From positions 1-35,437 of the forward strand of contig JAFYTG010000189.1 of NCBI GenBank assembly GCA_017558945.1: a stretch of DNA of 35,437 nucleotides, given 5' to 3'. Below are positions 18,027 through 28,069 of this stretch, piece after piece. This DNA comes from Clostridia bacterium (lineage in GTDB: Bacteria > Bacillota > Clostridia > Oscillospirales > SIG627). A model generated the notes under the pieces. It ran no database searches. It was given only the letters and a program-made list of their open reading frames with translations, and was not told where the DNA came from. The position numbers and the translations under genes are program-made. How positions within the stretch are numbered: the stretch's first letter is position 1; every line of letters starts with the position of its first letter.

Positions 18027-19976
18027 TTAATTCATCCAATCCCAATCGTCAGCTTCCATTACAACGTTCTTGCAAAAACTATCGTTAACTGTTACGTTCT
18101 GTGTGCCGTTATTGCAAGTCAAATTATTATAATACAACGCACAGGGAGCTGCATAAGCAGTAGTATCGGATTTAAAGTTACCAATCAAGGTACAATTCTC
18201 AACATACATATAAGCACCGCGATTATCGGATTTTCCATTAACGTAGAAGGGATAATTGCCATCGTTAACAATAAGATCGTAGCACTTAACCTTTGACAAG
18301 CGAATTGACTGTACCGATGCATTGTCGGCAGAAAGCTTCATGCCCAACTTATTTTTATAGTAGTTGTTTGCAGTTCCATCTAAATACAGATTTCTAATTG
18401 TAACTTGAATATGTTCGCTTAGTGTAACTGCACCACCGCAGTTAAAGAGGTGTCGATTAGTCGCGCTAGTCTTATCAGTAGTGCCACTCACCTTTATAAC
18501 CTTAATGTCCTCAGCATTACCAAGTCCAACAATATCAACACTAAAGCCAATATCTATCGTGGTAGCCTCATTATATGTACCGGGCATTATATATACCGTA
18601 TTAAAAGACACGCCCTTAAGAATTTCATACTGATAGCTTCCGCTTGCAGTAAACACCCTCCAAAGATTTCCGCCGGAAGCATTTACTGCGTAAACATCAT
18701 CGCCGTGATTTGCCTTAAGAGTAGCAACAGCTTCATCGGTTGAAACGGCAATAACAGTTTCCGCCTTCTTGCTTACCGCATAGCAGGTCTTACCGTCCTT
18801 TACGTAATCAACGACAATACAATCGTCTGCAACGTACTCGAAGGGATTGAAGTCGCCCGTTTCAAAGAGACCGTAAACGATTGCATTTTCGCCAATCTTA
18901 CCGTTGACGGAAAGCTCGCCGTAGGTAACCTCAAAGGGACTGAAGGAGGAGGTATTGAACTTTATAATACCCGTAACGGGATTATAGTCATAAACGGTAA
19001 TTTCGTTTCCGTTATGAGTAATCTTCTCAATATCAAGAAGCTGGTCAAGCTGAATTTCCACGGTATATTCAACGCCCGCCTGAGCAGCAACCTTTTCTCC
19101 GTCTCTTTCGAGGCTGATGTCGTAGCCAAGGCTGTCAAGACCGTTTGCGGTCTCACCTACGACCTTGTTATCTACTACTACGACGTAATTACCCGCTTCA
19201 CTTCCTGCGGGAACGGTAACGGATACGGAATCACCCTCATCGGTTTCCACGGTGATCTTCTTTTCGGCAATTCCGTCAGAGTATCCGCCTGCGGTTACGG
19301 GGAATTCCGCTTCCTCGTCATAGTACTTATCAAAGCTGTCCTCCTCAGAGGTAAACTGAGTTGCAAGAAGCTGTACGGTGAACTCGGTTCCGAAAGATCT
19401 GTTCTGATACTCGTTGCCTGCGTCCTCCTGCATCTTAAGTGCAAGAGTTATGGTAACCTTTTCATTTTCCTCAAGAACGCCGTTGCCCGATGCGTTGAGA
19501 CCTGCAAGGACCTCGGTGAGAGTTCCGAGCTTGTTGTCATCGCTGAAAGCGGTGCGCTCGTCAACCTTGATTGCAGGGTCAACGTAATATACGTCGATAA
19601 CGTCTGCAAGGCTTACACCGTCAGCGTAGGTTACGGTTCCGCTGGGAATAATGTTAAGCTCATACTTGAGCGCGAGAGTTCCCTCATTCTCAATCTTGAT
19701 ATGTCTTACTTGAGTAAAGCCGGGCTCCCAGAGCTCATAGCTGAATATTGCGCCCTTAGCCGCATCCTTCCAATCCGTATCTGCCGCAGCAGCAGGATCG
19801 ATACTCAAATCATCGATGTATTCAAGAGTTACATCAAGATTACCCGACTTAACAACGTTTCCCGTGCTGGTAACGCTGTCGGTAAACCACGCAAAAGTAG
19901 TACCGATAAGCATTGACGCACAGAGAAGAAGAGAAAGTGCGCTCATAATAAGCGAATTCTTTGTGCTTCTTTTCAT
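18027..19976 (-). CDS. Second SipW-type signal peptide (TasA/CalY-like) surface protein with beta-helix tail
   Basis: The 649-residue protein starts at the ATG at 19976 behind AAGGAG; the longer reading to 20111 would begin within the promoter. The signal at residues 8-33 ends 'GTTFAWFTDSVTS', as in the other copy. The TasA-like domain (about 40-235) shares 'LWEPGFTQVRHIKIENEGTLALKY' and 'FTVQLLATQFTSEEDSFDK', and the middle domain ends 'TSSFSPFEVTY'. The tail (about 430-649) differs: it contains 'VYIMPGTYNEATTIDIGF', the opening motif of pectate-lyase-like beta-helices, followed by regular strand-turn repeats. It would be secreted after SipW-type cleavage and could decorate or bind glycans. 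The two heads are clear paralogues placed about 15 kb apart. Confidence 0.8.
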   Translation of the reverse strand: MKRSTKNSLIMSALSLLLCASMLIGTTFAWFTDSVTSTGNVVKSGNLDVTLEYIDDLSIDPAAAADTDWKDAAKGAIFSYELWEPGFTQVRHIKIENEGTLALKYELNIIPSGTVTYADGVSLADVIDVYYVDPAIKVDERTAFSDDNKLGTLTEVLAGLNASGNGVLEENEKVTITLALKMQEDAGNEYQNRSFGTEFTVQLLATQFTSEEDSFDKYYDEEAEFPVTAGGYSDGIAEKKITVETDEGDSVSVTVPAGSEAGNYVVVVDNKVVGETANGLDSLGYDISLERDGEKVAAQAGVEYTVEIQLDQLLDIEKITHNGNEITVYDYNPVTGIIKFNTSSFSPFEVTYGELSVNGKIGENAIVYGLFETGDFNPFEYVADDCIVVDYVKDGKTCYAVSKKAETVIAVSTDEAVATLKANHGDDVYAVNASGGNLWRVFTASGSYQYEILKGVSFNTVYIMPGTYNEATTIDIGFSVDIVGLGNAEDIKVIKVSGTTDKTSATNRHLFNCGGAVTLSEHIQVTIRNLYLDGTANNYYKNKLGMKLSADNASVQSIRLSKVKCYDLIVNDGNYPFYVNGKSDNRGAYMYVENCTLIGNFKSDTTAYAAPCALYYNNLTCNNGTQNVTVNDSFCKNVVMEADDWDWMN

Positions 19977-20052
19977 TGTTTTTTCTCCTTGCTTAAAATT
20001 ATAATCAATAGCATAATACAGACAATCTGAAAATGCTCCTATCACATTTTCC

Positions 20053-20080
20053 ATTTTAATCAAAACCCTACAATTGTCAA
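20053..20080 (-). promoter_or_regulatory. Promoter of the second TasA-like gene
   Basis: Minus-strand TTGACA (20075-20080), 16-base spacer, TAAAAT (20053-20058). The spacing of 16 and the perfect -35 match the promoter of the other TasA-like gene, which hints at shared control. Confidence 0.65.
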
Positions 20081-20193
20081 GTACAATCAACAAATTGGCA
20101 GTTTTTTTCACGCAATCGGAGAAAAATCAGTAATAATTGAGTCCGTAATCGCTTAAGCAGACACTCTTCAAAAGCCATACGCAAGCTAATAAA

Positions 20194-22980: not shown

Positions 22981-23019
22981 TACGAAAAAATTTTCTTATT
23001 AAAAAATTAACCGTTAGTA

Positions 23020-23047
23020 CAAAAAACGGCGTGACAAAAGTCACGCC
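23020..23047 (-). terminator. Terminator of corC
   Basis: On the minus strand GGCGTGAC pairs with GTCACGCC around TTTT and is followed by GTTTTTTG. It begins seven bases after the corC-like gene's stop codon. Confidence 0.9.
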
Positions 23048-23054
23048 ACAGCAA

Positions 23055-24362
23055 TTATTCTTCCTTACCGTCCTCATCGGAATCCTTGGACTTTTTCTTG
23101 TCGTCCTCGTCATCCTCGTTCTTTTCAAATAGCTCAACACGGACAGAGGTAACTCTGTGAGACTCACAAACCTCAACGGTCAAAACACCGAAGTCGGTCT
23201 CAAGTCGGTCACCCTCCTCGGCAACCTTTTCAAGACGCTCGGCAACAAAGCCTCCGAGAGAAACGCTGTCTGTCTCAAAATCGTCAAGGTCAAAACGGCT
23301 CTTGAAATCCTCCATATTGACACCGCCCTCAACGAGATAAAGTCTCTCGCCAATCTCACGGTAATCCTCAACTACCTCGTCGTGCTCGTCCCAGATTTCT
23401 CCGACGAGCTCCTCGAGAATATCCTCCATAGTGACTATACCGAGAGTTCCGCCGTACTCGTCAAGCACGACCGCAATATGAGATTTTTCCTCCTGAAGTC
23501 TCTTGAGAATACTCATAATCTTTTCGGTCTGGTTGATAAAAATGGGCTCGGAGGAAATATCCTTGATATCTCCCTTGTACATACCGCCGTTAACGTAGAA
23601 GTCCTTCTGATGAATAACGCCGACAATGTTGTCAATGCTATCCTCAAAAAGAAGAAGTCTCGAAAAGCGTGTTTCGGTAAAGCAATCGGCAATCTCCTGC
23701 TTTGTAGCGGTAATGGGAAGAGCCTCAATGTTTATACGGTGGGTAAGTATTTCCTCGGCACAACGGTCGGTAAACTCGATAGCATTCTTAAGAAGCTCAC
23801 CCTCGTCGTCGTTGATGCTTCCCTCCTGCTGACCCTCTTCAACGAGAATAAGCAGCTCCTCCTGAGATACGCCCTCCTCCTCTTCCGCCTTGAAAAGCAC
23901 GTAGATGAGCTTTCTCCACAAGGAGAAGATGAAATTGAAGGGAGTGAGAAGAATCAAAAAGAACTTAAGTAAGCGCACGGTTGCCATTGCGAATTTTTCC
24001 GCAAAGCTTCTTGCAAGGGTCTTGGGCGTTATCTCACCGAAGATGAGAACGACTATCGTTACCGCAACGGTTGAAACGGTTGCCGCAACGTCCTGATCCT
24101 GAATGAGCTTTACGAAAACAATGGTAGCCATTGAAGAAAGCAGGATGTTAACCACGTTGTTACCGATAAGTATCGTGGAAATGAGCTTGTCGTATTGCTC
24201 GGTAAGAGCCAACACAACGTCCGCCTTTTTGTTACCCTTTTCCGAAAGAGCCTTAAGGCGAGTTTTATTTACCGAGGAAAAAGCCGTCTCGGTAGCCGAG
24301 AAATACGCGGAAAGCACAAGGCAAACCGCCATAACTATAAAATACGGGATATATTCTGTCAT
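23055..24362 (-). CDS. CorC/HlyC (CNNM)-type transporter, likely Mg2+ exporter
   Basis: The 435-residue membrane protein has a DUF21/CNNM transmembrane domain (about 1-185, four hydrophobic stretches; 'FSATETAFSSVNKTRLKALSE' and 'FGEITPKTLARSF' motifs). Two CBS domains follow at about 205-325 ('EEILTHRINIEALP', 'VVLDEYGGTLGIVTMEDILEELVGEI'), then a CorC_HlyC domain at about 340-410. The tail after 412 is densely charged. Family members such as S. aureus MpfA and the CNNM proteins export Mg2+. The DEYGG motif and domain order are canonical. Expression probably depends on the leader ORF and terminator just upstream, which end in an ATGA overlap with this start. Older annotations call such genes haemolysins, for which there is no evidence here. 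Confidence 0.88.
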   Translation of the reverse strand: MTEYIPYFIVMAVCLVLSAYFSATETAFSSVNKTRLKALSEKGNKKADVVLALTEQYDKLISTILIGNNVVNILLSSMATIVFVKLIQDQDVAATVSTVAVTIVVLIFGEITPKTLARSFAEKFAMATVRLLKFFLILLTPFNFIFSLWRKLIYVLFKAEEEEGVSQEELLILVEEGQQEGSINDDEGELLKNAIEFTDRCAEEILTHRINIEALPITATKQEIADCFTETRFSRLLLFEDSIDNIVGVIHQKDFYVNGGMYKGDIKDISSEPIFINQTEKIMSILKRLQEEKSHIAVVLDEYGGTLGIVTMEDILEELVGEIWDEHDEVVEDYREIGERLYLVEGGVNMEDFKSRFDLDDFETDSVSLGGFVAERLEKVAEEGDRLETDFGVLTVEVCESHRVTSVRVELFEKNEDDEDDKKKSKDSDEDGKEE

Positions 24363-24505
24363 AAAGCAAACACCTCATCATTTCTAAAAATAGACACAAA
24401 AAGGCATACCTGCACACCTTTAGTGCGCGCAGATATGCCGAAATCTATTTCATTATTATTAAAAAAGCAAGTGTTCGCGTCAGGGTCGCAACTGTCGCCG
24501 TCCAT
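24359..24505 (-). CDS. Leader peptide overlapping corC (candidate Mg2+ sensor)
   Basis: A 48-codon open frame starts at the ATG at 24505, twelve bases after a strong AAGGAGG (24518-24524), and ends in TGA overlapping the corC ATG as ATGA. A second in-frame ATG at 24517 touches the AAGGAGG, too close for normal use. The peptide opens with the acidic, proline-containing MDGDSCDPDANTC, then FFNNNE, then a hydrophobic-basic part. The last 25 or so codons run straight through the terminator hairpin at 24403-24439. Nascent acidic/proline-rich starts destabilise ribosomes when Mg2+ is low in E. coli MgtL. The homology here is of principle only. The frame may instead be a chance reading through a structured RNA. 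Confidence 0.55.
   Translation of the reverse strand: MDGDSCDPDANTCFFNNNEIDFGISARTKGVQVCLFVSIFRNDEVFAL
24398..24439 (-). terminator. Intrinsic terminator (attenuator) inside the corC leader
   Basis: On the minus strand the stem GGCATA-tCTGC... pairs with ...GCAG-gTATGCC across about 15 pairs with a small bulge, and TTTTT follows at 24398-24402. It lies 36 bases upstream of corC, between its promoter and its start, so transcription must pass it. It is fully covered by the leader ORF, so an elongating ribosome would prevent it from folding. Confidence 0.75.
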
Positions 24506-24541
24506 TATCCGTATCATCCTCCTTGAAAATTATTCGAAGGA

Positions 24542-24570
24542 ATTATAACAAATAAAAGGACTTTTGTCAA
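24542..24570 (-). promoter_or_regulatory. Consensus sigma-A promoter of the corC leader
   Basis: Minus-strand TTGACA (24565-24570), exactly 17 bases, TATAAT (24542-24547): both hexamers are perfect. The predicted start near 24535 gives a leader of about 170 bases before corC. Confidence 0.85.
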
Positions 24571-24578
24571 GCCCTTTT
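24554..24578 (-). terminator. Terminator-like hairpin overlapping the corC -35 element
   Basis: Minus-strand AAAAGGGCTT pairs with AAGTCCTTTT (one G-T pair) around GACAA, followed by ATTTGTT. It lies 12 bases after the ABC transporter stop and contains the TTGACA box of the corC promoter in its loop and inner stem. It would end the nifS-thiI-pth-ABC transcript just before the new one begins. Confidence 0.6.
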
Positions 24579-24590
24579 AGTAAATTATGC

Positions 24591-26303
24591 TTATGCTCTG
24601 AGATGAGAACGGTAAAGTCCTGCGTAAACACCGCCCTTTTCGAGAAGCTCGGTATGAGTTCCTCTCTCGGTAATTCTTCCGTCGGATACAACAACTATCT
24701 CATCCGCACACTGCACGGTGGAAAGTCTGTGAGCAACGATAAGCGTCGTTCTTCCCTCGCAAAGCTCGTTGAGAGCATTCTGTATAAGTATCTCGGTCGC
24801 ATTGTCAAGAGCACTCGTTGCCTCGTCGAGAATAAGAATGGGAGGATTCTTGAGAAAAATTCTCGCAATGGAAAGTCTCTGCTTCTGACCTCCCGAAAGT
24901 CTTACGCCTCTCTCACCGACCTCGGTGTCGTAGCCCTTTTCAAGAGTGGTTATGTAATCGTGTATACCTGCCTTCTTCGCCGCATCAATAACCTCCTCCT
25001 CGGTAGCGTCGGGTCTTCCGTAAAGGATGTTGTCACGGATGGTGGAGTTAAACAGATAAACGTCCTGCTGAACGATACCGATATTACGGCGGATGGATTC
25101 ACGAGTATAGCTTTCGGCAGGTCTTCCGTCGAGGAAAAGCTCACCGTTTTCAATATCGTAAAATCTCGGTATAAGGTGGCAAACCGTGGTCTTGCCTCCT
25201 CCGCTCGGACCGACGAGCGCAACCGTCTTACCCTTTTCAAGCTTCAAATCGATTCCGTGAAGTACGTCGTGTACTCCGTCGTAGCCGTAGGACACCGAAC
25301 GGAATTCTATATCACCCTCAAGCACTCCCGCATCAACCGCGCCCTCACTATCCTTTTCGGGCTCGGCATCAAGCACCTCGAGAAATCTCTCAAAGCCCGT
25401 AACGCCGTTCTGATACTGCTCCATAAAGTTGATAAGTGTCATAACGGGAGACAGAAACATATTTACCGATACGACGAACGCCGAATAGTCACCGAAGAGT
25501 ATATAGCCCTTATAATAGAAGAATCCGCCCGCAATAAGCACTATGACGTTGAATATATCGGTAATAAAGGAAGTGGAGGCGTGAAACTGACCCATCGCCT
25601 TATACGCCTTGTATCTTGCGTAGATAAAATCCTCGTTGCCCTCCTCAAACTTTTCCTGCTCCTTTGCGGAATTGTTGTACGCCTTGGTGGTACGGATACC
25701 CGAGATGCTTCCCTCGATACATGCGTTTATCTTGCCGACAGCCTCACGGCTTTCCTTAAAGGCGTTTCGCATCTTGACTCTAAGCTTCATTGCCGCAACA
25801 AGCAAAAATGGTACGGCAACGAAAATAACAAGAGTGAGACGGATATCGATGGTTGAAAGAAAGATAAAGGAAGCAATAGCAGTTATGGTGGAAATAAGCA
25901 GATTTTCGGGACCGTGATGAGCAAGCTCGGAAATCTCCCAGAGGTCGCTCGTCATACGGGTCATAAGCTTACCCGTTTCGTGATTGTCAAAATAGCTGTA
26001 CGGAAGCTTTTCAAGATGTGTGAAAAGCTCGCTTCTCATCTGTGCCTGCATTTTAACGCCCATAACGTGACCGTAATACTGAATGAAATAGTTAAGAAGC
26101 ATACGCACGATATAAAGCGCAAGCAGACCGAGACCCGCCCAAACCACCAGACTGTATTTTCCGTTGGGTATGAGGTCGTTGAGCATTTCACGAGTAAGTA
26201 TCGGATAAAGTATTGCAATAAGCGCAACGAAGAGCGATGCCGTCATATCCCAGAAGAAAATCCTTTTGTGTGGCTTGTAATATGACAAAAATCTTTTTAA
26301 CAT
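24591..26303 (-). CDS. ABC exporter, fused membrane and ATPase domains
   Basis: The 570-residue half-transporter starts at 26303 behind AAGGAG. Residues about 1-300 hold six membrane helices of the type I exporter fold with the coupling region 'SYFDNHETGKLMTRMTSDLWEI'. The ATPase domain has Walker A 'GPSGGGKTT' at 365-373, the signature 'LSGGQKQR' and Walker B 'ILILDEATSALD', plus the H-loop 'VAHRLST'. As a homodimer it would export a lipid, drug or peptide. It follows pth by 10 bases in the nifS-thiI-pth unit, with no accessory gene, so the substrate is not apparent. A MsbA-like or multidrug role is possible. Confidence 0.9.
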   Translation of the reverse strand: MLKRFLSYYKPHKRIFFWDMTASLFVALIAILYPILTREMLNDLIPNGKYSLVVWAGLGLLALYIVRMLLNYFIQYYGHVMGVKMQAQMRSELFTHLEKLPYSYFDNHETGKLMTRMTSDLWEISELAHHGPENLLISTITAIASFIFLSTIDIRLTLVIFVAVPFLLVAAMKLRVKMRNAFKESREAVGKINACIEGSISGIRTTKAYNNSAKEQEKFEEGNEDFIYARYKAYKAMGQFHASTSFITDIFNVIVLIAGGFFYYKGYILFGDYSAFVVSVNMFLSPVMTLINFMEQYQNGVTGFERFLEVLDAEPEKDSEGAVDAGVLEGDIEFRSVSYGYDGVHDVLHGIDLKLEKGKTVALVGPSGGGKTTVCHLIPRFYDIENGELFLDGRPAESYTRESIRRNIGIVQQDVYLFNSTIRDNILYGRPDATEEEVIDAAKKAGIHDYITTLEKGYDTEVGERGVRLSGGQKQRLSIARIFLKNPPILILDEATSALDNATEILIQNALNELCEGRTTLIVAHRLSTVQCADEIVVVSDGRITERGTHTELLEKGGVYAGLYRSHLRA

Positions 26304-26313
26304 CTTTTTCTCC

Positions 26314-26901
26314 TTAGTTATAATGGCACATTGCCGTGTCAATTCCCTCTCTCAGCATTTCACAAAGAGCCGCGTGAGTATTAGTGAAGGCGTCAAACAT
26401 AAGCTTTTCGTCTGACTTGGGAAATCTTCCAAGCACCCAATCCTTCATATCGTAATCGGGGTGAGGAGGAGAGCCGACGCCTATCTTTATTCTCGGAAAA
26501 TCCGAGGAATTAAGATGCGCCGTAATTGACTTTATTCCGTTGTGACCTCCGTGAGAGCCCTTGCGACGAAGTCTTATCTTACCCGGAACAAGAGAAATAT
26601 CGTCAAAAATAACGATTACGTTTTCGGGAGGAATGTTATAAAACTTTGCCGCCTCGCCAATGGCAAGTCCCGAATCGTTCATATAGGTCTGCGGCTTCAT
26701 AAAGAGTATCCTCTGACCCTCTATCTCTCCGTCAAAGCAAGCGGAATGGAATTTCACCTTTCCCGAGCCGACTCCTATCTTTTCTAAAATATAGTCAAGC
26801 GCAAGGTAGCCTGCGTTGTGTCTTGTAAATACATACTCCTTACCGGGATTGCCGAGACCTGCGACAATATAGGTATAGGTCTTATTATTAAAAAGCTTCA
26901 T
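26314..26901 (-). CDS. pth: Peptidyl-tRNA hydrolase
   Basis: The 195-residue enzyme frees tRNA from abandoned peptidyl-tRNA. Family motifs are present in order: 'VAGLGNPGKEYVFTRHNAGY' with the catalytic histidine at residue 28, 'KPQTYMNDSG' near 70, the aspartate in 'IFDDISLVPGKIRLR', and 'GSHGGHNGIKSI' near 113. Length is normal. Its start lies inside the end of thiI (14-base overlap), so translation is coupled. In many Firmicutes pth is near mfd or prs; here it joins tRNA thiolation genes instead. Confidence 0.95.
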   Translation of the reverse strand: MKLFNNKTYTYIVAGLGNPGKEYVFTRHNAGYLALDYILEKIGVGSGKVKFHSACFDGEIEGQRILFMKPQTYMNDSGLAIGEAAKFYNIPPENVIVIFDDISLVPGKIRLRRKGSHGGHNGIKSITAHLNSSDFPRIKIGVGSPPHPDYDMKDWVLGRFPKSDEKLMFDAFTNTHAALCEMLREGIDTAMCHYN

Positions 26902-28069
26902 TATATATCACCTGATGTTCAAGAGTTTTGAGTGCGTTTTCGATAAGGGTCTTACGGTCGAGTCCTTCCTCAGCGCGAATTACCTTTTCAAGCACGGGGC
27001 GTGTTCTCGGATGAGGAGGAGTGAACACCGTGCAGCAATCCTCGTACGGCTCAATAGAGGTCGCAAAGGTATCAATGCGTCGGGCTATCTGCACGATCTC
27101 CTCCTTGTCCATACCAATCAAGGGACGGAACACGGGGATGGAGGGCACGCAATCGGTTACCGCAAGAGCCTGCATTGTCTGACTTGCAACCTGACCGATG
27201 CTCTCACCCGTTATCAGTGCGTTTGCATTTACACGGCGGGCAACCTCGTCGGCAATCTCCATCATAAAGCGACGGAGAATAAGGGTGAAATAATCGTACT
27301 CGCAGTTATCTCGGATAGCCTCCTGAATTTCAGTAAGAGACACCTTGTTGAAATGCATCTTGTCGGTATAACGGCAAAGCTTACCTGCAAGAGTCTTTAC
27401 CTTTTCAAGTGCACGCTCGGAGGTGTAAGGGAAGCTTTCAAAGTGGAGCGCATCCACCTCAACGCCTCTCTTTGCCATCATCCAGCCCGCAACGGGAGAA
27501 TCGATTCCGCCCGACAAAAGAAGCAGACCTCTGCCTCCCGTTCCGTACGGAAGTCCTCCTGCGCCCATTGTTTTTCCTGCGTGGATGAATGCGTATTTCT
27601 CACGCACCTCTATCATAACGGTTATTTCGGGATTTATAACGTCAACCGCAATATCGGGACATTTTTCGGAAAGCTCTCCGCCTACCTCCATCATAATCTG
27701 AGGAGTGGTATACGGGAAGGTCTTGTCACTTCTGCGCGCATCCGCCTTGAAGGAGCGATAGCCCTCAAGATGAGGCGGAATATATTCAAGTGCCACTCTC
27801 ATTATTTCCTCCATGCTCTTTTCGGCACGGTAGGCAATACAAAGAGACACTATTCCGAAAATTCTTGACAAAGCATCGTGCGCTATCTCGACGTCCTCGT
27901 CACGCTCGGGAGTTACGTAGACGGTAGACTGCATATATTCAAGCTCATATTCACCGATAAGTCCCTTAAGACGACGGCGTATGGAATCGGCAAGCTGTTT
28001 TTCAAAGGCGCGTCTGTTTGCCCCCTTTAAAATTATCTCACCGTATTTTAAAAGTATTGTTCTTTTCAT
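26888..28069 (-). CDS. thiI: tRNA uracil 4-sulfurtransferase, rhodanese-free form
   Basis: The 393-residue protein makes 4-thiouridine in tRNA and can feed sulfur to thiazole synthesis. It has an N-terminal ferredoxin-like/THUMP region (about 1-165, with 'GEIILKGANRRAFEKQL') and a PP-loop ATPase domain with 'LLSGGIDSPVAGWMMAKRG' at about 182-200 and 'GESIGQVASQT'. It ends without the C-terminal rhodanese domain of E. coli ThiI, as in Bacillus, where a partner desulfurase supplies sulfur directly. The nifS-type gene immediately upstream shares one base of its stop with this start, which fits that partnership. Confidence 0.95.
   Translation of the reverse strand: MKRTILLKYGEIILKGANRRAFEKQLADSIRRRLKGLIGEYELEYMQSTVYVTPERDEDVEIAHDALSRIFGIVSLCIAYRAEKSMEEIMRVALEYIPPHLEGYRSFKADARRSDKTFPYTTPQIMMEVGGELSEKCPDIAVDVINPEITVMIEVREKYAFIHAGKTMGAGGLPYGTGGRGLLLLSGGIDSPVAGWMMAKRGVEVDALHFESFPYTSERALEKVKTLAGKLCRYTDKMHFNKVSLTEIQEAIRDNCEYDYFTLILRRFMMEIADEVARRVNANALITGESIGQVASQTMQALAVTDCVPSIPVFRPLIGMDKEEIVQIARRIDTFATSIEPYEDCCTVFTPPHPRTRPVLEKVIRAEEGLDRKTLIENALKTLEHQVIYNEAF

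Follow-up and report, generated by a model that had tools for sequence, protein, structure and literature searches.

How might a bacterium control a gene for a putative Mg2+ exporter when a short acidic reading frame, with a transcription terminator inside it, stands between the promoter and the gene? The question is raised by the corC locus in contig JAFYTG010000189.1 of a Clostridia bacterium (assembly GCA_017558945.1), the whole 35,437-nucleotide stretch of which is called the window here. A sequence-only reading of the window had picked out, ahead of a gene of the CNNM/CorC family, a TTGACA-17-TATAAT promoter, an AAGGAGG Shine–Dalgarno (SD) sequence and a 48-codon leader frame starting MDGDSCDPD, which holds an intrinsic terminator and whose stop overlaps the corC start as ATGA; all of these features were confirmed. 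That reading had proposed a Mg2+-sensing attenuator in which the ribosome finishes the leader and re-initiates on corC. In relatives, the acidic start, the bias towards synonymous change and the terminator in the frame were all recovered, while re-initiation at ATGA did not prove general. The arrangement is kept in relatives and so, judged as sequence, is beyond chance. It is probable that the leader belongs to a translation-coupled transcription attenuator in which the ribosome itself is the sensor of Mg2+ or cation.

Conservation of the acidic leader and its terminator

A set of 110 CorC loci was gathered, 30 from 146 related whole genomes (window included) and 80 from genome contigs, which by title are mostly from uncultured Oscillospiraceae and other Clostridia. 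Removal of eight near-duplicates and one locus short of upstream DNA gave 101 dereplicated upstream regions, in which the upstream open reading frame (uORF) was selected solely by SD strength. Controls were the uORFs found before other long open reading frames (ORFs) within these loci; of 319 regions upstream of such ORFs, 197 yielded a control uORF, and many of these fall within neighbouring coding sequence. A uORF with a good SD is present in 93 of the 101 CorC regions, window included. It begins with Met followed by Asp or Glu in 76 of the 93, compared with 35 of the 197 control uORFs; among 197 control gene starts the figure is 15. The acidic N-terminus foreseen from the window is indeed kept in relatives. 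Positions 2–10 hold a mean of 2.84 acidic residues in the leaders, and 0.79 in both control uORFs and control gene starts.

Among the 69 leaders which bear a terminator hairpin (see below), codon 2 encodes Asp in 67 and Glu in two, with both Asp codons in use, and codons 3–8 encode chiefly Ser, Asp, Gly and Cys, and less often Pro, Glu, Ala, Asn and Tyr. The pairwise ratio of non-synonymous to synonymous change (dN/dS) over codons 2–8, calculated at three divergence limits from pairs that are non-independent, is 0.18–0.26 in frame, 0.86–0.95 in the +1 frame and 0.53–0.58 in the +2 frame. This is the synonymous-biased pattern predicted earlier, and the comparison indicates that the N-terminal codons are under coding constraint. 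Such constraint would also suit a functional small protein acting on CorC in trans, an exceedingly unlikely explanation: the leaders vary in length, and the conserved 5' stem arm of the hairpin lies in frame 0, 1 or 2 relative to the ATG in 30, 11 and 4, respectively, of the 45 leaders (of 69) in which the motif was located. This drift of frame, together with the varying lengths, implies that there is no conservation of the C-terminal half at the peptide level.

The leaders are of several types, acidic or proline-rich throughout, which include MDSDSSDD, MDSDDGDYPAN, MDEPPPSNN, MDSVPRRRR, MEPDDGNP and MDESPLPADSPRR; variants that echo E. coli MgtL are MEPDD (L073), MDPLPRSS/R (L311, L312), MDSVPRRRR (L019, L021) and MDEPPP (L023, L027). 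This variety bears on classical amino-acid attenuation via charged transfer RNA (for Asp, Ser, Asn or Cys), which would account for leaders rich in a few residues, Asp foremost. However, Glu and Pro replace Asp, some entire leaders are of a Pro/Arg type and the targets are exporter-type rather than biosynthetic genes, and this explanation is given hardly any credence. Two leaders stand in tandem ahead of one corC (L151/L019, G116:C14), the first, MEDSGTRSC..., with a hairpin and the second being MDSVPRRRR...; they recall the tandem attenuators reported for Salmonella mgtCBR.

The distance between SD and start is tight and unusually long in the leaders, with a median of 12 nucleotides (nt) (quartiles 11–13; 69 leaders, for example 24524-24503 in the window), compared with 8 (6–11) at 278 other gene starts and 10 (7–12) at the corC genes of the same loci. 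This long spacing could tune initiation or early drop-off of the ribosome.

Hairpins were sought by a fold-based scan, since a scan for near-perfect stems misses bulged hairpins (it found 49 of 76, and in three of these the frame had already ended far ahead of the stem). One 75-residue frame, L092, probably an unrelated small gene, was removed before counting, which reduced the 76 acidic leaders to 75. A terminator hairpin lies downstream of the start in 69 of the 75, at a median of 59 nt from the start codon (range 35–118). In all 69 the leader frame is open to the hairpin (to 14 nt or less from the stem, or further), compared with 46 in the +1 frame and seven in the +2 frame. The leader stop falls past the U-tract in 36, in the U-tract in one, within the hairpin in 27 and within the 14 nt before it in five; a terminator that lies inside the frame or at its end, first noticed in the window, is thus found in every hairpin-bearing leader. 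Strong hairpins (-14 kcal/mol or lower) follow 62 of the 75 leaders and 31 of the 197 control uORFs, 20 of which are open to the hairpin. A promoter-like site matching 10–12 of 12 consensus positions is present within 90 nt upstream of 57 of the 69 leaders, window included, as against 2.6% of mononucleotide shuffles, and a T-enriched stretch lies 4–13 nt 5' of the hairpin. The ATGA overlap occurs in six of the 76 acidic leaders, with a one-base overlap of stop and start at two more loci, and re-initiation at ATGA was therefore ruled out as a core feature.

From the 62 leaders whose hairpin is strong, alignment A1 takes 48 and leaves out 14 for their odd length or their closeness to others; this selection means that some pairing is built in. 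Paired cells make up 92.1% of A1 against 82.8% when shuffled, and cells altered on both sides number 65 against 26.1, values reached by none of 500 shuffles in either case. The RNAalifold consensus contains the terminator helix alone. The stem, GGCATATCTGC...GCAGGTATGCC, and the trailing TTTTTGCG are conserved beyond the apparent needs of base pairing, and across different reading frames.

That extra conservation of the stem, in several frames, is what an RNA-only attenuator or a riboswitch of a new kind, with the acidic ORF incidental, would have in its favour. Against such an element stand the dN/dS ratio, well under 1 in frame and higher in the other two frames, the frame that stays open as far as the hairpin in all 69 leaders, the lone terminator helix of the consensus and the lack of any Rfam match; it is very improbable. 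The sequence-only reading had itself named a riboswitch match in the region as contrary evidence: none of 4227 Rfam families matched the whole window at gathering score, and a search of 24300-24640 with expectation values (E) up to 10 gave nothing credible.

Genes downstream of the leader

As an exact DNA pattern, the core start has five matches in the 146 genomes, all of them CorC leaders of the collected set, while the reversed control pattern has none. A covariance model, R1, was built on A1, that is, on leaders of CorC type-1 genes, and run on the 146 relatives and on 391 genomes of the class, and its hits were classified by the gene downstream. The counts that follow are among the matches listed. 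At E up to 1e-4, hits fall at 52 distinct places, which precede 33 CorC type-1 genes, eight CorC type-2 genes, six P2A-type ATPase genes and, in five cases, no target gene (one of the five, L178, is at a contig end). An exporter-type gene thus lies downstream of 47 of the 52, 14 of them outside the model's own family; many type-1 hits are training loci or repeats of them, and the 14 others (type-2 and ATPase) are neither.

The CorC protein of the window has as its nearest solved chains 7m1t/7m1u, 'Hemolysin, contains CBS domains', and by analogy with characterised relatives it would export Mg2+. Among the best 30 CorC type-2 loci, 13 have a leader by the strict rule. Among the best 30 P2A ATPases a credible leader is found in one subclade of four (70–100% identical to the query), and P2A ATPases in general, 26 of the 30 being without a credible leader, were ruled out as targets; acidic calls at L280 and L286 in this set look spurious. 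The leader-bearing subclade (L276-L279) has the N-terminus M(D/E)xHxxxPWHA, and its substrate may differ from that of ordinary Ca2+-ATPases. For one ATPase, L164, the nearest solved chain is the calcium-transporting ATPase lmo0841, known as LMCA1, and PMR1-type models match below cut-off.

The identity of the signal is where a rival has most room. Instead of Mg2+ as such, the same device could respond to the general condition of the ribosome or to polycations as a whole (polyamines, the bL31/zinc state, an ABC-F factor or antibiotic stress), which is unlikely but deserves serious attention. The one type-2 protein scanned, L131, scores best against the model of the polyamine exporter PaeA, although below cut-off. 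Statements credited here to published papers rest on excerpts of them: polyamines can replace Mg2+ (PMC12421838), and EttA and bL31 modulate the translation of acidic starts (PMC11282234, PMC8092293). Mg2+ is favoured by the 41 CNNM/CorC-type genes among the 52 strong hits, and by the links of Salmonella CorC and MgpA, S. aureus MpfA and two CorB proteins to Mg2+ tolerance or efflux (PMC12421838). PaeA, however, is a polyamine exporter that belongs to this broad family too, and the family's link with Mg2+ is not decisive.

A survey of the phylum gave a CorC match in 130 of 299 genomes, and 80 upstream regions were taken, eight of them from the window's class. An acidic uORF is present by the rule in 15 of the 80, several probably by chance. 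A separate family of acidic leaders outside the window's class (L220, L224 and L230; MEDSFGEEG... in two and MDEDIGDEG... in one), which ends PFYYPRP or PFYYLRP ahead of corC, looks credible; in L230 a hairpin and T-run are visible by eye only. Many distant CorC proteins, with starts picked by SD, begin with acidic residues themselves. Whether the leader and an acidic start of CorC itself replace one another was considered, as 20 of 76 loci with a leader and 16 of 25 without one have an acidic start of their own (Fisher p 0.0014). The pattern did not hold up on a quick CorC tree, where only six supported independent pairs differ in the leader and the sign test is not significant (median p 1).

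The proposed mechanism and the layout of the window

Given the conserved frame with its coding constraint, the terminator in or at the end of that frame and the exporter-type genes that follow, the mechanism is envisaged as follows. A strong promoter would produce a short leader RNA, on which a ribosome would initiate and polymerise an acidic or proline-containing N-terminus of small residues (MDGDSCDPD in the window). At low Mg2+, or at a low total of stabilising cations, this N-terminus would destabilise the ribosome; the ribosome would drop off, the downstream hairpin would form and transcription would stop. With ample Mg2+ the ribosome would run into or through the hairpin, the terminator would be blocked and the exporter gene, for CNNM/CorC, CorC type-2 or a P2A-type ATPase, would be transcribed. 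In the window the ribosome would finish on the corC start, where re-initiation may contribute. The expected sign, ON at high Mg2+, fits an exporter. The elements of such a mechanism have precedents: translation is aborted by acidic residues near the start, an effect that high Mg2+ opposes (PMC9718836), abortion at acidic starts is also described in PMC11282234, an intrinsic terminator in E. coli is repressed by a ribosome that translates close to it (PMC4824070) and B. subtilis has ribosome-mediated attenuators (PMC4191407, PMC9226507).

Several points weigh against this mechanism, among them the non-independence of the dN/dS pairs, the pre-selection behind A1 and the confinement of ATPase leaders to one subclade. 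An acidic leader by the rule is absent from 25 of the 101 CorC upstream regions; the second-best frames of L054, L075 and L078, and non-MD leaders such as L086, L094 and L104, are acidic by inspection and lie outside the count. Openness to a hairpin is not rare, as 63 of the 197 control uORFs have a hairpin and 46 of these 63 are open to it. Pairs with change on both sides number nine in A1, a figure attained by 39 of 500 shuffles. TTNTTT, a NusG-type pause motif, was not established before the hairpin (16 of 62 segments, against a mean of 11.5 in dinucleotide shuffles). B. subtilis is among the species with runaway transcription, which would make control by a ribosome passing through a terminator harder. 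Runaway transcription in some species argues against tight coupling (PMC13323073). Finally, four acidic residues in the first ten are a moderate number and may be too few for strong abortion alone: of the three yeast ORFs with four Asp or Glu residues that were tested, one was clearly aborted (PMC9718836), and di-acidic residues alone are insufficient according to the EttA paper (PMC11282234).

The features of the locus are collected in the table. Ten promoter-like sites lie in 23000-27000, and the full score of 12 is reached solely by that at 24570-24542. Its -35 box lies within the loop of an inverted repeat (TAAAAGGGCTTGACAAAAGTCCTTTTA; 24579-24553, minus strand) which is followed by T-rich DNA and sits just past the upstream ABC transporter gene; the promoter of the leader and the terminator of the upstream gene may be overlaid. 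A second in-frame ATG at 24517 directly abuts the leader SD, so that the ORF called mechanically has 52 codons; the MD start at 24505, with an SD-to-start gap of about 12 nt, is the one kept in relatives. The ATGA shared by leader stop and corC start is at 24362. The predicted pairing of leader codons 10–13 with the corC ribosome-binding region is a possible second regulatory layer in the window; its arms were also spotted by eye in L002 and in no other genome, a weak sign. With the terminator-like site after corC, promoter, leader, gene and terminator look like a single unit. Elsewhere in the window, a 694-residue ORF lies at 18027-20111 on the minus strand, the N-terminal part of which presumably resembles TasA/camelysin-type proteins.

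Features of the corC locus, with positions in the window
Feature	Position	Strand	Detail
Sigma-70-type promoter TTGACA-17-TATAAT, with TG ahead of the -10 box	24542-24570	-	12/12 consensus match
SD sequence AAGGAGG of the leader	24518-24524	-	sequence; duplex energy -11.7 kcal/mol
Acidic leader ORF, 48 residues plus stop, MDGDSCDPDANTCFFNNNEIDFGISARTKGVQVCLFVSIFRNDEVFAL	24359-24505	-	ATG 24505, TGA end 24359; start MDGDSCDPD
Leader codons 10–13 (GCGAACACTT), predicted pairing with corC ribosome-binding region 24375-24366	24469-24478	-	minimum-free-energy fold
Intrinsic terminator hairpin, 15 pairs, then TTTTT (24402-24398)	24403-24439	-	entirely within leader frame
CNNM/CorC gene, 435 residues	23055-24362	-	Pfam above cut-off: CNNM membrane domain, CBS, CorC_HlyC
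Terminator-like site 3' of corC	23026-23049	-	terminator scan

Comparison with known systems

Sensing by intrinsic ribosome destabilisation (IRD) and ribosome-mediated attenuation are known as principles. Among the matches listed from open-access titles and abstract openings, a scope outside which most subscription journals lie, no leader peptide is described for firmicute CorC/CNNM or P2A ATPase genes. What appears to be new is a leader that is both acidic and separate, with an intrinsic terminator in frame, combined with the sign of the response and the spread over three exporter types. The wider proposition is evenly balanced: many Clostridia may share a Mg2+ gauge based on ribosome stability, which controls CorC type-1, CorC type-2 and one P2A subclade and makes up an export regulon without a protein or riboswitch sensor and with a sign opposite to that of MgtL.

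If this is true, the ribosome reports its own Mg2+ saturation, and exporters are turned ON once a destabilising leader has been finished. The leader-bearing P2A subclade would then be predicted to export Mg2+ or another ribosome-stabilising cation, and the leader would be a sequence marker for unassigned cation exporters. The dozens of natural variants would serve for learning which early sequences destabilise ribosomes.

MgtL is the leader of mgtA in E. coli and Salmonella; in E. coli it is completed at high Mg2+, and the ribosome drops off on EPDP at low Mg2+ (PMC11282234). The Clostridia leaders resemble MgtL in being short, with early acidic or Pro residues and a cation transporter gene downstream, and some of them share MEPD or PLPR-type starts. 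MgtL differs in that it governs a Rho-dependent terminator and an importer, and its full translation leads to OFF, whereas the Clostridia leaders have an intrinsic terminator in frame (Rho sites were not searched) and exporter-type targets, and their translation should lead to ON. Alternative folds gate MgtL, while the Clostridia consensus holds the terminator helix alone.

The systems nearest in target are those of Salmonella and E. coli. Salmonella corC and mgpA are induced by high Mg2+ through regulation that has been called unclear; E. coli CorC is said to have an IRD start, an IRD sequence in CorC's own N-terminus is suggested to raise CorC at high Mg2+ in Salmonella and E. coli, and the YoaL leader is suggested to do the same for mgpA (PMC12421838). 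The device proposed for Clostridia would be an answer that is widespread in bacteria beyond Salmonella and that needs no protein. In composition, the Clostridia leaders are like both MgtL and the N-terminus of E. coli CorC/YbeX (MSDDNSHSSD). The target family is the same, and yoaL overlaps the yoaE start; however, in CorC/YbeX the acidic sequence lies in CorC itself and not in a separate leader, and YoaL is not acidic (MDRHRRHFS). The excerpts of the Salmonella account do not mention an intrinsic terminator inside the leader (PMC12421838). In Salmonella MgtQ, a short uORF, Asp2 and Glu5 impede its own translation and so control a Mg2+ transporter gene (PMC8092293); MgtQ differs in acting on translation of an importer via a stem-loop at the ribosome-binding site, and not on transcription termination.

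Attenuators of the trp type are set apart by their composition and folding: in Clostridia Asp is swapped for Glu or Pro, and the consensus lacks an antiterminator fold. In pyrBI, a ribosome close behind RNA polymerase blocks a terminator in the leader frame, the signal being polymerase pausing dependent on uridine triphosphate. The Clostridia leader frames likewise enter or cross an intrinsic terminator, or stop within the 14 nt before it, in all 69 leaders with a hairpin; they differ from pyrBI in their class of target and in the proposed signal, which would be the stability of the ribosome on an acidic N-terminus.

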